A DNA stretch of 35,195 bases, taken from assembly GCA_028873515.1 (NCBI GenBank), contig JAGWIG010000026.1, positions 1-35,195 on the forward strand. The letters are read 5' to 3'. The position numbers were made by a program, and so were the translations under genes. This document shows positions 5,432 through 12,511 of this stretch, one piece after another. The stretch comes from Pseudomonadota bacterium. GTDB taxonomy: Bacteria > Pseudomonadota > Gammaproteobacteria > Burkholderiales > REEB80. Position 1 is the first letter of the stretch; each line of letters opens with the position of its first letter. A model generated the notes under the pieces. It saw nothing but the letters and a program-made list of their open reading frames with translations. It searched no databases and was not told the DNA's origin.

Positions 5432-5746
5432 GTTTTTTTGTTGTCTGGTTCTACCCAGGCTGGATATCATGGTGTCCTGGTCCGGTATTCCTGGGGGATA
5501 CCAGGCCTGTTCCGGCCAAAACCCTGATTGGCCCATGGATTCTGAAAAAGAAGATTTGACAGGTTCTTCTGGGTCTGGATAAGATACGCCCATCGGGTTC
5601 ATTCGGTCGTGAAGCTGGCCCACCGTTATGGCGAGTCTATCAAGTATCAAATCTTCCTGGGAATCCTGTTCCCAGCCGGCGTACAGAGCAATCTTCAAGA
5701 GCGCAGCATTTAAATCGAACCAGACAGGCTGCCTGTCTGCCTTCAT
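5411..5746 (-). CDS. Hypothetical protein, 111 aa, second of a minus-strand pair
   Basis: I do not recognise this 111-residue product. The first 55 residues look protein-like and mainly helical ([31 protein letters not shown]), while the second half is rich in Pro, Ser and Gln and may be disordered. The ATG lies four bases after the stop of the upstream minus-strand ORF, so translation could be coupled; the Shine-Dalgarno (GAAAGA) is weak. It ends tail-to-tail with the DUF1348 gene, overlapping it by 21 bp. It lies on the integrase side of the core genes, which suggests accessory DNA. It could also be a chance ORF. Confidence 0.42.
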
Positions 5747-5750
5747 TCTT

Positions 5751-5963
5751 TCATGATGCGGGATCCGGGGGGTTTTTCGTCTGCCTCAGGGTGGAAGGAA
5801 GTTTTTTTGTGTCCGTAATGATCACTACAGGCGCTTCATGAAGCGTATCAGCGTGATGAAAATTCACGTCCAGCAAGAACCGGCTTGAGTCCGGTTCCAG
5901 ATGATGCTGTCCGGGCTGAATCGGATCAGGGGATGAAATCATCAGGTAAGTCTTATTCATCAT
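5751..5963 (-). CDS. Hypothetical protein, about 70 aa, first of a minus-strand pair
   Basis: A short ORF of unknown function. The chosen start is one of two adjacent ATGs (5963 and 5960); a GTG at 5999 would extend it by 12 residues. No convincing ribosome site precedes any of them. The middle (RFLLDVNFHHADTLHEAPVVIITDTKKLP) reads like a beta-alpha-beta segment; I see no known motif. An inverted repeat with 7-bp arms (5877-5883 and 5891-5897) lies inside it. The four-base gap to the next minus-strand ORF is the main support for the two being a transcription unit. Confidence 0.35.
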   Translation of the reverse strand: MMNKTYLMISSPDPIQPGQHHLEPDSSRFLLDVNFHHADTLHEAPVVIITDTKKLPSTLRQTKNPPDPAS

Positions 5964-6373
5964 GGCGTGTTCTGAATTCTGGCATGGACAGCAAATCACT
6001 GCTCCATGGGCGTCTTCAGGGCATTCAGGCTCAGGGCAGCTCTTAAGGCCCGGGTTGAAGCTTATTGTATTCCAGTGCCGGGCAGGTCTTCGGTACTGTT
6101 CATTATCCTGCCGTCATGGTCTGCCCAGGTTCACCTGTTTCCCGTTTTCGGGGAAGCGTGCAAGGAGGGCAGGGACTGGTTCAGAAAGAAGCAGGAAAAA
6201 ATGGAAAATGTATGCCAGGCCGGGTTTCAGGATAAATAGTCCTGCAAATCAGGGTCTGGACTATTGATGCTCCCTGTCATGGATTTGGGGCGGGCATCCG
6301 GTTTGGAATCTGCAGGCTCGTTTTGCTGGTATTCCCCATGAGGTCCCGATGGTTGCAGTCGGGAGTGGCCCCT

Positions 6374-8143: not shown

Positions 8144-8653
8144 ATGCCTAGAACCAAGGATCCGACAAACCTTCCTGAATTCAGCCGAAACCTGGCTGAG
8201 GCTTTGCATGCATCGGGTCTCACCCAGGATGAATTTGCCGATCAGCTGACCAGCCTGACTGAAACTGCTGTCAGCCGGGCACGTCTGGCCTCCTGGCTTG
8301 CGGGGGTGACCCCACGTTCCGATGCTGAAGGTTACCTGGTTGCTGCCCGGGAGATTTCGGGCGGCGGAAAAATCCCGCTGCCTGTCTGGGTCGAAGGCGC
8401 GATAGTTCAGGCAAGAATCAGGGCCTGGCTTGCCCAGGGGGTAAGCCGCAAGGTGCTCTGGCTGGCTGCAGGAATACCCCAGCAAACCCTGAGTGTTTGG
8501 GAATCTGGCCGGGTACGGGTCAAACGCCGCACCTGGATCCGGGTCGAGGCCTTGACTGAGGCCTGGATTAAAGCCCTGGATGATGCCCTGAAAGCGGCAG
8601 GTGAAATCCGCGATCATGCTGAAAATACCCGTCAGGAGCCGGATGCCCGGTGA
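8144..8653 (+). CDS. Predicted DNA-binding protein with two helix-turn-helix regions
   Basis: A 169-residue soluble protein. Residues 12-68 resemble an XRE/Cro HTH (GLTQDEFADQL, then SRARLASWLAG as recognition-helix region). A second HTH-like region lies near residues 92-140 (GVSRKVLWLAAGI, PQQTLSVWESGRV, then basic KRRTW). The C-terminus is a charged helix. I cannot assign a specific regulator family. There is no Shine-Dalgarno; a TATAAT ends five bases upstream, suggesting leaderless translation. Its position next to an integrase fits a regulator of an integrated element. Confidence 0.68.
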   Translation: MPRTKDPTNLPEFSRNLAEALHASGLTQDEFADQLTSLTETAVSRARLASWLAGVTPRSDAEGYLVAAREISGGGKIPLPVWVEGAIVQARIRAWLAQGVSRKVLWLAAGIPQQTLSVWESGRVRVKRRTWIRVEALTEAWIKALDDALKAAGEIRDHAENTRQEPDAR

Positions 8654-9161: not shown

Positions 9162-9191
9162 TTGACCCGATACCCCATAAGGGTATATTAT
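9162..9191 (+). promoter_or_regulatory. Promoter of the copA operon
   Basis: A -35 TTGACC (9162-9167) and a -10 TATTAT (9186-9191), each matching five of six consensus bases, are separated by 18 bp. The spacer is almost filled by the first CsoR-type operator. Confidence 0.7.
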
Positions 9192-9206
9192 ACCGGGGTA
9201 GGGTAT
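9170..9206. promoter_or_regulatory. Two CsoR-type copper operators
   Basis: Two 17-bp pseudo-palindromes of the form ATACC-N7-GGTAT lie at 9170-9186 (ATACCCCATAAGGGTAT) and 9190-9206 (ATACCGGGGTAGGGTAT), with centres 20 bp apart, about two helical turns. The first lies between -35 and -10; the second covers the start point. They resemble the known TACC(C)...GGGTA operators of CsoR repressors, and a CsoR gene ends this operon, so autoregulation is very likely. Cu(I) binding should release the repressor. Confidence 0.78.
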
Positions 9207-9225: not shown

Positions 9226-11649
9226 ATGTCCGAGCGTGTATTGAAACAGATTGAGTTCCCCATTGAAGGCATGACCTGTGCGGCCTGCGCAATGCGGGTT
9301 GAAAAGGGCCTGAACCGGCTGCCTGGGGTAGAGGCTTCGGTCAATGCGGTGAATGATGAGGCTCGGGTTGAATTTGACCCGGGCAGGGTGAGTCCTCTGG
9401 AAATGCTGGCTGCAGTGGAGCAGGCAGGTTACGGTGTGCCGCATCAAAGTGTGGATCTGGCCCTCTTTGGCATGACCTGTGCGGCCTGTTCGAGCCGCAT
9501 AGAAAAGATGCTGAACCGGCTTCCTGGTGTGAAAGCGAGCGTTAACCTTGCCACTGAAAAGGCACAGGTGACCTACCCTTCGGGGATGGTGGAGATAGGT
9601 GATCTGATACGCCAGGTTGAAAAAGCCGGGTATGGGGCACAGGAAATCAGGCTTCTTGATTCAGCGGGGCAGAAATCCAGGGATGAGGCACTTTACCGAA
9701 GCGGGGTGAGGCGCTTTGCCGTGTCTGCCCTGCTTACCCTGCCGCTGCTTGCGCAGATGCTGGGAATGTTTACCGGCCAGAGGGCGTTCCTGCCGCTCTG
9801 GCTGCAATGGCTGCTGGCAACCCCGGTCCAGTTCTGGATAGGGGCACGCTTCTACAAGGGAGCCTGGAAGTCGCTCAAGGGAGGCGGGGCCAACATGGAC
9901 GTGCTTGTGGTGCTTGGGACCAGCATGGCCTATTTCTACAGCACGCTCGTTTTCTGGATGGGACTTCATGCCCATGTTTATTTTGAAGCCAGCGCTTCCA
10001 TCATCACCCTGATCCTGATGGGTAAGCTACTGGAAGCCAAGGCCAAGAGGTCAGCCTCTTTTGCGATTGAAAAACTGATCAGGCTGCAACCGAAAACAGC
10101 CCGTGTGGAGCGCGATGGCCAACTCCTTGATGTCGATGTGGCGCAGGTGGCAAAGGGAGAGGTTTTCGTGGTACGTCCAGGTGAGAGCATTCCGGTGGAT
10201 GGTGTTGTTTTATCCGGAGTATCCACGGTCAATGAGGCGATGCTGACCGGAGAAAGCCTGCCCCAGTCCAGGAAAGAAGGAGACCGGGTATTTGCGGCAA
10301 CACTTAACGGCCAGGGCCTGCTGCGCTGTCGCGTTACCGGTGTCGGGCCGGATACGGTTTTGGCCAGGATCATCCGTATGGTCGGCGAAGCCCAGGGTTC
10401 AAAGGCACCGATCCAGCATCTGGCCGACAGGATTTCCGGGGTATTTGTGCCCTTGGTGGTCCTGATAAGCCTGGTTACCCTGCTGGCATGGTGGATTCTG
10501 GGCGCGCATTTTACCGTGGCGCTCATCAATGCCGTAGCGGTTCTGGTCATCGCCTGTCCCTGTGCCCTGGGCCTGGGCACCCCTACAGCGATCATGGTGG
10601 GTACCGGGCGGGGTGCCCAGGCAGGCATCCTCATCCGCAATGCCCAGGCGCTCGAGCGGGCGCACCAGATTGATGTCCTGGTTGTTGACAAGACAGGTAC
10701 CCTGACATGGGGCAGGCCTACGCTTACGGATCTGGTTCCCGAGGGAGAGACTGACGGGGTAGGCACACTGCTCAGTCTTGCTGCCACCCTGGAGCAGGGT
10801 TCTGAACATCCCTTGAGTCAAGCGGTCATGGAACGGGCCAGGCAGGAAGGGATCAAGCCTGGGCCCATGACGGGTTTCAGGGCCGAGCCGGGGCAGGGAA
10901 TCACGGCTAGCATCGATCATGAGCAGGTCTGGCTTGGTGCGCCTGCCTGGCTGCAGCAGCAGGGTATTGAAGTCAATGGGGATCGACTCCGTGACCTGCA
11001 GTCGGAAGGCAAGACCGTGGCTGGACTCGCGAGGGCTGGACAGTGTCTGGGTTTACTGGGCATGACCGATACCCTGCGTCCGAGTGCCCGTCTGGCTGTA
11101 TCAAGACTGCATGAGATGGGGATAGAAGTCATCATGATGACCGGTGATAATGCGGCCACGGCTGGAATGATCGCAGGGGAAGCAGGCATCCACCAGTATT
11201 TTGCCGGAACCCTGCCCCAGGACAAGGCCGAAAAAATCCGGAAGATGCAGCAGGAGGGACGCCTCGTCGGCATGGTCGGTGACGGGATTAATGATGCTCC
11301 GGCACTGGCGGGTGCCGATGTCAGTTTCGCCATGGGTTCCGGTTCCGATATCGCCATGGAAACGGCCGATGTCACCCTGATGCATGGCGATCTGCTTGCT
11401 GTGGCCGATGCCATAGACCTGTCGCGGGCAACCTTACGCAAGATCAGGCAGAATCTTTTTTTCGCCTTTATCTACAACCTTATGGGAATTCCCCTGGCAG
11501 CCATGGGCCTGCTCAATCCTGTCATTGCCGGTGCGGCCATGGCCTTGAGTTCGGTCTCCGTGGTGACCAGTTCCCTCTTGTTACGCCGGTGGAAGCCGAT
11601 GCAGGCGGTTTCCCCGATATCCTTGAACCTGAACCCAATGGAGGAATGA
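9226..11649 (+). CDS. copA: Copper-exporting P1B-type ATPase
   Basis: An 807-residue inner-membrane pump that uses ATP to export Cu(I) from the cytoplasm. Two N-terminal metal-binding HMA domains carry GMTCAAC at residues 15-21 and 82-88. The metal site CPC is at residues 444-446, the phosphorylation site DKTGTLT starts at Asp488, and the hinge GDGINDAPA is at 685-693. HP of the P1B family is present in EQGSEHPL. Membrane helices lie near 160-280, 400-470 and 745-790. The length is usual for a two-HMA CopA. The ATG follows AGGAACGGG. copZ starts one base after its stop, so the two are co-transcribed under the CsoR-type operators. Confidence 0.97.
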
Positions 11650-11650
11650 T

Positions 11651-11863
11651 ATGACCACGACTGCCCGGTTGACGATTCACGGCATGAGCTGCAGCGGATG
11701 TGTGAACAGTGTCAGGCGAGCCTTGAGCAGTATCGCAGGTGTGGGCAAGGTCAGCGTGTCCCTGGAGGAAAGCCAGGCCCTGGTTGACTATGATCCGCAG
11801 AAAGTATCGCTGGAACAGCTTAAAGGCGTGATAGAGGAGGCGGGATATGACGTACCCGGGTAA
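11651..11863 (+). CDS. copZ: Copper chaperone
   Basis: A 70-residue single HMA domain with the Cu(I) motif GMSCSGC near residues 11-17 and the usual beta-alpha-beta-beta-alpha-beta length. It should carry Cu(I) in the cytoplasm to CopA or to CsoR. A strong GGAGG lies six bases before the ATG and inside the end of copA, and its own 3' end overlaps csoR by 17 bp, so all three genes are tightly coupled. Confidence 0.93.
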   Translation: MTTTARLTIHGMSCSGCVNSVRRALSSIAGVGKVSVSLEESQALVDYDPQKVSLEQLKGVIEEAGYDVPG

Positions 11864-12164
11864 GGGGCATGAACTGAAACCGCATGCTGCCCCTGTTGTG
11901 GTGCAGCCCAGGAAAAAACAGCTCCTGACCCGCCTGAACCGCATAGGCGGGCAGGTAAAGGGAGTCGCGCAGATGGTTGAGGATGACCGGTACTGCATCG
12001 ATGTCCTGACCCAGGTCAGTGCCATCAAGTCAGCACTGGACGCTGTGGCCATGCAAATTATTGAGGACCATACCCAGGGGTGTGTGCAAAAGGCGATCAG
12101 GATGGGTAAGGGTGAGGAGGCCATTTCCGAATTAATGGGTGTGCTTAAAAAAATCAGCCGTTAG
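11847..12164 (+). CDS. csoR: CsoR-family copper-sensing repressor
   Basis: A 105-residue all-helical DUF156 repressor. The DNA-binding helix RLNRIGGQVKGV is at about 29-40. Metal ligands Cys50, His75 and Cys79 have the same 25- and 4-residue spacings as the Cu(I) site of M. tuberculosis CsoR, so copper rather than nickel, formaldehyde or persulfide is the expected signal. The ATG lies inside copZ with GAGGAGG six bases upstream, so it is translated with copZ. Two matching operators lie at 9170-9206, pointing to negative autoregulation of copA-copZ-csoR. Confidence 0.92.
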   Translation: MTYPGKGHELKPHAAPVVVQPRKKQLLTRLNRIGGQVKGVAQMVEDDRYCIDVLTQVSAIKSALDAVAMQIIEDHTQGCVQKAIRMGKGEEAISELMGVLKKISR

Positions 12165-12324
12165 GCAGGCCCTGGGTGGCTGCCAAACCGCAATGGTCTG
12201 GTGTGGGTCCAGAACTTAAGCTGTCCTGCCAGGGCCTGGCTCAGGAAGTGATGCCTGTGCGGTAGCAGTCCGATGTGGTCTGGAAAAACAGGATTTCAGG
12301 CAGGTTCCGGGTTGTAGAAGAAAG

Positions 12325-12354
12325 CCGGCCAGTTCAGTACGAGCCGGTTTTTTT
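12325..12354 (+). terminator. Probable terminator of the copper operon
   Basis: A short GC stem, CCGGC (12325-12329) with GCCGG (12343-12347), is followed immediately by seven T. The stem is only five base pairs, so strength is uncertain, but it is the first T-run hairpin after csoR. Confidence 0.5.
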
Positions 12355-12511
12355 GTGTATGAGGGAAAAGGGGCAGTATCCGGGGGGTTCACAGGCAGAA
12401 TCCAGAAAAGTACCCAGACCGGTTTTCAGCAACTTAAGGGCACAGGGAAGCTTCCGGTATTTTTCTCATCGGGTTAAACAGGGCCAGGGTGAGGTTGAAC
12501 CCGGCTTACAT

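Follow-up and report, generated by a model that had tools for sequence, protein, structure and literature searches.

Two predicted CsoR operators flank the −10 element of a betaproteobacterial copA-copZ-csoR operon in a 20-bp layout that recurs in a second family

The window analysed here, that is, the whole stretch of 35,195 nucleotides of DNA, carries what we consider, with a probability of roughly 0.9, to be an autoregulated copA-copZ-csoR copper-efflux operon of a betaproteobacterium, in which two putative type 2 CsoR operators are placed round the −10 element of the promoter. Judged from its sequence, this would be a copper switch of a familiar, ordinary type whose tandem operator is recurrent. 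Paired sites have been described before in the CsoR/RcnR family, and CstR probably has two operators; what is added here is that the 20-bp layout of the pair is kept in a congener and recurs in a second family. The features concerned are as follows.

9162..9167, + strand: −35 hexamer TTGACC, from the promoter scan; the consensus match is 10/12 when it is paired with either −10 hexamer
9170..9186, unstranded: predicted CsoR operator box 1, ATACCCCATAAGGGTAT, TAC-X9-GTA, 12/12 arm positions, inside the −35/−10 spacer
9184-9189: alternative −10 hexamer TATATT, spacer 16, from the promoter scan
9186..9191, + strand: likely −10 hexamer TATTAT, spacer 18, at the junction of the boxes, from the promoter scan and by inference from the promoters of relatives
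9190..9206, unstranded: predicted CsoR operator box 2, ATACCGGGGTAGGGTAT, TAC-X9-GTA, 11/12 arm positions, over the expected start point
9226..11649, + strand: copA, copper-exporting P1B-type ATPase with two N-terminal HMA domains and a CPC motif, ATG at 9226
11651..11863, + strand: copZ-like HMA copper chaperone (PF00403, 68 bits)
11847..12164, + strand: csoR, CsoR/RcnR-family repressor with C50-H75-C79 (PF02583, 103.2 bits, cut-off 22.8)

Positions 9162-9206 read TTGACC-cg-ATACCCCATAAGGGTAT-att-ATACCGGGGTAGGGTAT, with the linker att at 9187-9189. Boxes were scored against ATACCC-N5-GGGTAT, which has 12 arm positions, and box 2 deviates from the palindrome by CCG vs GGG. Both boxes follow the type 2 CsoR operator rule, TAC-X9-GTA with G/C tracts, and, being two separate sites in one promoter, they form a tandem operator by sequence. 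Each is 17 bp long and their centres lie 20 bp apart, or 1.9 turns at 10.5 bp per turn; the first-pass annotation had described paired CsoR-type operators two turns apart, of which the pair stands and the two turns are an approximation, and it was right to put one 17-bp site between −35 and −10 and the other across the expected start point. A sigma-70-like promoter with its −10 flanked by the two boxes is predicted 5′ of copA-copZ-csoR, although the scan of 3.7 kb that returned it found 4 promoter-like sites vs 2.0 expected and is thus weak evidence by itself. We predict with high confidence that both boxes are CsoR operators.

The motif by itself means little, since with one mismatch allowed it occurs at the genomic background (41+32 places vs 34+33 for the reversed control), and the evidence accordingly lies in position and conservation. 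Box 1 is nevertheless the sole 12/12 match in the 3.42-Mb source genome. A wider CsoR regulon was not apparent there, in that none of the 15 other sites scoring at least 11/12 lies 5′ of a recognised copper-related gene, as judged by eye. Thirteen of these sites were inspected, 10 of them overlapping an ORF of at least 90 aa and 3 not, and the remaining two (contigs C11 and C92) lie within repetitive ORFs. These two motif matches fall inside a coding repeat of the GAA(A/T)NSG type, and related ORFs with long runs of such repeats are present on small contigs (L046:650-1495; L047:2746-3672 and 5490-6050).

The genes behind the promoter are those of a copper-efflux operon. CopA matches TIGR01511 with 595.8 bits (cut-off 397) and PF00403 in two stretches, and the copZ product matches the NCBIfam CopZ models below cut-off. 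The three genes lie on the + strand with short or overlapping junctions, copZ and csoR overlapping each other, and their order confirms the earlier statement that csoR is the last gene of the operon. Because csoR stands last in the operon that it is predicted to repress, behind its own putative operators, the closed feedback loop proposed at first pass is likely to exist as negative feedback. After csoR, at about 12310-12360, there is a possible terminator, a hairpin with seven T at the end of its 3′ arm; it was seen in the fold (z only −1.2 for the entire folded segment) and was not picked by the promoter scan. Upstream of the operon the window encodes a tyrosine recombinase (PF12835, PF00589; 6701-7711) and an HTH protein (8144-8653), and the copper operon may thus border a mobile segment.

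The regulator itself is most similar, among solved structures, to CsoR 4m1p (E 1.8e-25), and its Cys50, His75 and Cys79 stand where solved CsoR chains have their C-H-C copper ligands. These residues are invariant in an alignment of five sequences, namely this CsoR, three relatives and a distant paralogue; as the paralogue is among them, the C-H-C ligands alone do not prove copper. The sequence RLNR at residues 29-32 corresponds to the RLXR motif, which is named for Streptomyces lividans CsoR together with a Gln contact. Only the RicR, FrmR and RcnR models of NCBIfam matched the regulator, all below cut-off, and since these models name other branches of the family such matches do not exclude CsoR. 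The protein that would bind the operators is very probably the operon's own copper-sensing repressor.

From these elements a working model can be drawn. Apo-CsoR would occupy the two operators that flank and overlap the −10, with box 1 filling the −35/−10 spacer and box 2 covering the start point, so that RNA polymerase would be kept off; as the boxes meet at the −10, CsoR on either of them should block polymerase. Cu(I) filling the C50-H75-C79 site would make CsoR release the DNA, CopA and CopZ would then be produced to handle and export copper, and the additional CsoR made along with them would shut the operon again. DNA binding, release by Cu(I) and the presence of two tetramers per box we infer from CsoR proteins that have been studied.

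Conservation was assessed in 399 genomes of the order, 73 of which have CsoR at E≤1e-18, and the pieces round all 73 csoR genes were examined. In 59/73 loci copA precedes csoR in the same orientation; 14/73 loci without a copA match on the piece and 3 with truncated promoters were dropped, leaving 56 complete promoters of 320 bases. A box scoring at least 11/12 is present in 52/56 of these promoters vs 2/5600 Markov controls, that is, a type 2 operator is conserved at orthologous promoters. The best score was 12 in 38 promoters, 11 in 14, 10 in 1 and 9 in 3, as against 10 in 9 promoters, 9 in 21 and 11 or more in 0/56 when the reversed pattern was applied to the same set. The right end of the box continues as a −10-like TATA in 37/52 promoters whose box scores at least 11, and TTGNNN ends 0-2 bases 5′ of the main box in 26/52; among the other 26/52 the box is often elsewhere, for example directly 5′ of TTGACA. 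The four promoters without a box of at least 11 are those of loci L152, L153, L178 and L187. Three of these (L152, L153 and L187) have no two-armed box of at least 10 and carry instead G-rich sites resembling ATAGGGTATGGGGGTAT, which are perhaps type 1 sites.

Outside these promoters, 12 of the 14 loci without a copA match have a box of at least 11 in the interval that opens 4 kb ahead of csoR and closes 1.5 kb past it. In family f27 (L162-L166 and L168) csoR has no nearby copA match, and five of the six loci carry a 12/12 box some 1.6-1.7 kb upstream of it, L163 having none. In 16 more distant loci with a copA match (from 68; L071 in this set is from the same genome as L060), scanning of the pieces gave a box of at least 11 in 10 and none in 6 (L079, L088, L127, L128, L132 and L134), which suggests that the box either is not universal among more distant csoR loci or stands beyond the piece that was scanned.

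A second box at exactly +20 bp is present in 8/56 promoters (the window, L049, L060, L146, L157, L175, L178 and L180). They come from the two species sampled within the genus and from six genomes in the family of Andreprevotia, so that the pair spans two families and, by the genome labels, five genera. Weak second boxes count by position only, because 10.6% of the Markov controls have a 9-of-12 match somewhere, and position is what sets +20 apart: among 51 promoters with a main box of at least 11, seven have a second box of at least 9 at this offset, where 0.04 would be expected if the genomes were independent, compared with 10/13945 positions for all other offsets combined. The binomial figure for +20 makes that assumption of independence although the genomes are related, and is therefore far too small. 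The mean score at +20 is 4.39 vs 3.01 (sd 0.285), the next being 3.64, and +20 is the sole clear peak.

It might be supposed that box 1 is the sole operator and that box 2 matches by chance or has decayed, since box 2 scores lower and 40/56 promoters have no second box of at least 9, which does imply that box 2 is not needed for CsoR control. We regard this as very unlikely, given the peak at +20 and the behaviour of the congener. The congener's promoter, L049, keeps both boxes, the 20-bp step and every arm position, including an unusual G at position 6 of box 2, while its four differences from the window in the 37-bp block are confined to the N5 centres.

In the eight 20-bp promoters the linker of 3 bases is att or aat, and in most of them it completes a −10 resembling TATATT or TATAAT. 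The pairs are not all equally good. In the other family, a TAC or GTA anchor is missing from one or both boxes in five of six 20-bp promoters (box 1 of L146, L175, L178 and L180; box 2 of L060 and L180), and for that reason these pairs may be weaker; the two boxes score 10 and 10 in L178 and 11 and 9 in L180. The same defects bear on the idea that the two boxes form one composite operator, in which the inner GTA-X5-TAC dyad over the junction (GTATATTATAC at 9183-9193) would provide an extra binding mode like that of the external GTA dyad of S. lividans copZA1. The excerpted text of PMC3902906 does report that external GTA dyads gave an 11 nM site in copZA1-EXT. However, the inner dyad is broken in five of six 20-bp promoters of the other family, where box 1 of L146, L175, L178 and L180 ends in GCA or GTT and box 2 of L060 begins with CAC, and a composite operator therefore appears unlikely.

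Other spacings exist as well. Pairs 34 bp apart are found in L066, L067, L068 and L155, and also in L183, a locus without a copA match; pairs 23-24 bp apart are found in L055, L141 and L181. Further weak 9-of-12 boxes occur in L057 and L146, and in the distant locus L070 two 12-of-12 boxes stand at a distance of 25 bp.

The history of the 20-bp pair was traced on a quick CopA tree of 57 rows, the deepest forks of which are weak and from which the short CopA rows of L158 and L171 were left out. The window and L049 are sisters (98), joined next by L137 (100), which has one box only, and their clade lies inside a set of 27 rows (96) that contains no other 20-bp pair and is apart from the other family. 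Taken over all rows, the 20-bp label must change 4 times, and well supported branches account for 2 of these changes by necessity, which makes separate origins of the pair likely on the sequences compared. The alternative is a single gain followed by losses, or transfer.

Why the 20-bp step should recur can be read in two ways. Contact between the CsoR assemblies on the two boxes might be the reason why the pair arose repeatedly in betaproteobacteria, in which case it would repress more tightly, and respond to copper more steeply, than the single box that most sampled relatives use; we consider this possible but doubtful. Alternatively, the boxes may be two independent CsoR operators without contact, their 20-bp step being set by the fact that both abut one −10 hexamer, and we give this even odds. 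Conservation of 20 bp fits the cooperative repression suggested at first pass, and it fits simple promoter geometry equally well, given that the two boxes meet at the −10. Independent operators are favoured by the linkers, which complete a −10-like hexamer in most of the eight promoters, and by the relatives with 23, 24 and 34 bp, spacings that also appear to speak against a strict one-face rule. No direct evidence counts against independence, although an exact 20 bp in two families would be expected from contact just as well.

Control of copA by CueR is usual in many proteobacteria, and a MerR-type activator such as CueR, or another regulator, could in principle use the palindromes. This is scarcely credible here. 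MerR-type promoters have a spacer of about 19, as against 16 or 18 in the window, the boxes accompany csoR operons across the order, and CueR control was rejected on finding 0 matches to the CueR model in the source genome (G000) at E≤0.001; the congener's genome (G001) has one such match, below cut-off, at 83 bits. The annotators' remark that CsoR control is worth noting here, many proteobacteria using CueR for copA, draws a weak contrast: CueR is above the curated cut-off in 17/100 relatives and CsoR reaches E≤1e-18 in 21/100 (own genome included in both counts). The comparison is rough, because at E≤0.001 the CueR model finds a MerR-type match in 71/100 relatives, and the weaker of these matches may include functional CueRs.

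The source genome contains one other CsoR-family member, 26% identical to the regulator, which adjoins a cation-exporter-like protein and is divergent from a second copper-type ATPase. Between that ATPase and the paralogue lies TTACCCTGAAACAGGGTA (L048:3168-3185, equal to contig C234:8167-8184 of G000), a TAC-X11-GTA site with the same half-site as the boxes and 2 bp wider. It is the sole exact match in the source genome, and with up to 2 mismatches it occurs in 21 places vs 4 for the reversed control; it is possibly the paralogue's operator. The congener's piece L198 contains no exact TAC-X11-GTA match.

Comparison with known systems places the predicted operon close to several of them. S. 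lividans CsoR requires TAC-X9-GTA and binds as two tetramers per box, with external GTA dyads altering the binding mode, and some organisms are stated to have sites of type 1 or type 2 in tandem (PMC3902906). The S. lividans system (csoR, copZA1, copZA2) shares with the present one the TAC-X9-GTA type 2 boxes, a C-H-C CsoR and a copper ATPase and chaperone as targets. As far as the excerpted text of that paper goes, each promoter there has one consensus box, with an external GTA dyad in copZA1, whereas two full boxes 20 bp apart are found here, and csoR here lies inside the copA-copZ operon, unlike in S. lividans (PMC3902906). Escherichia coli RcnR likewise has two sites of one family per promoter, although these are type 1 (TACT-G6-N-AGTA) and serve nickel/cobalt, whereas those described here are type 2 and, by the ligands, presumably for copper (PMC3902906). 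In Bradyrhizobium liaoningense a proteobacterial CsoR controls a copper ATPase through a CsoR box at csoR-cueA, and csoR itself is derepressed in the mutant; there the genes are divergent with one putative 19-bp box, in contrast to a single operon with csoR last and two boxes (PMC5057107, in part). The Staphylococcus aureus CsoR sites at copA and copX, examined by EMSA on promoter fragments, are boxes of the same ATACC...GGGTAY form, one of 16 bases at each promoter compared with two boxes here (PMC5947656, in part). Among the matches listed from the open-licence PMC literature, none dealt, by its title and the opening of its abstract, with a tandem CsoR operator at the copA gene of a betaproteobacterium.

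CsoR lacks a DNA-binding domain of the usual sort, and two of its tetramers are reported to bind a single site. The copA promoters of this one order provide a natural series, with one box or with two at 20, 23-24 or 34 bp, which allows a test of whether CsoR cooperates between sites. For annotation, the counts suggest that CsoR control of copA may be roughly as common in the order as control by CueR.
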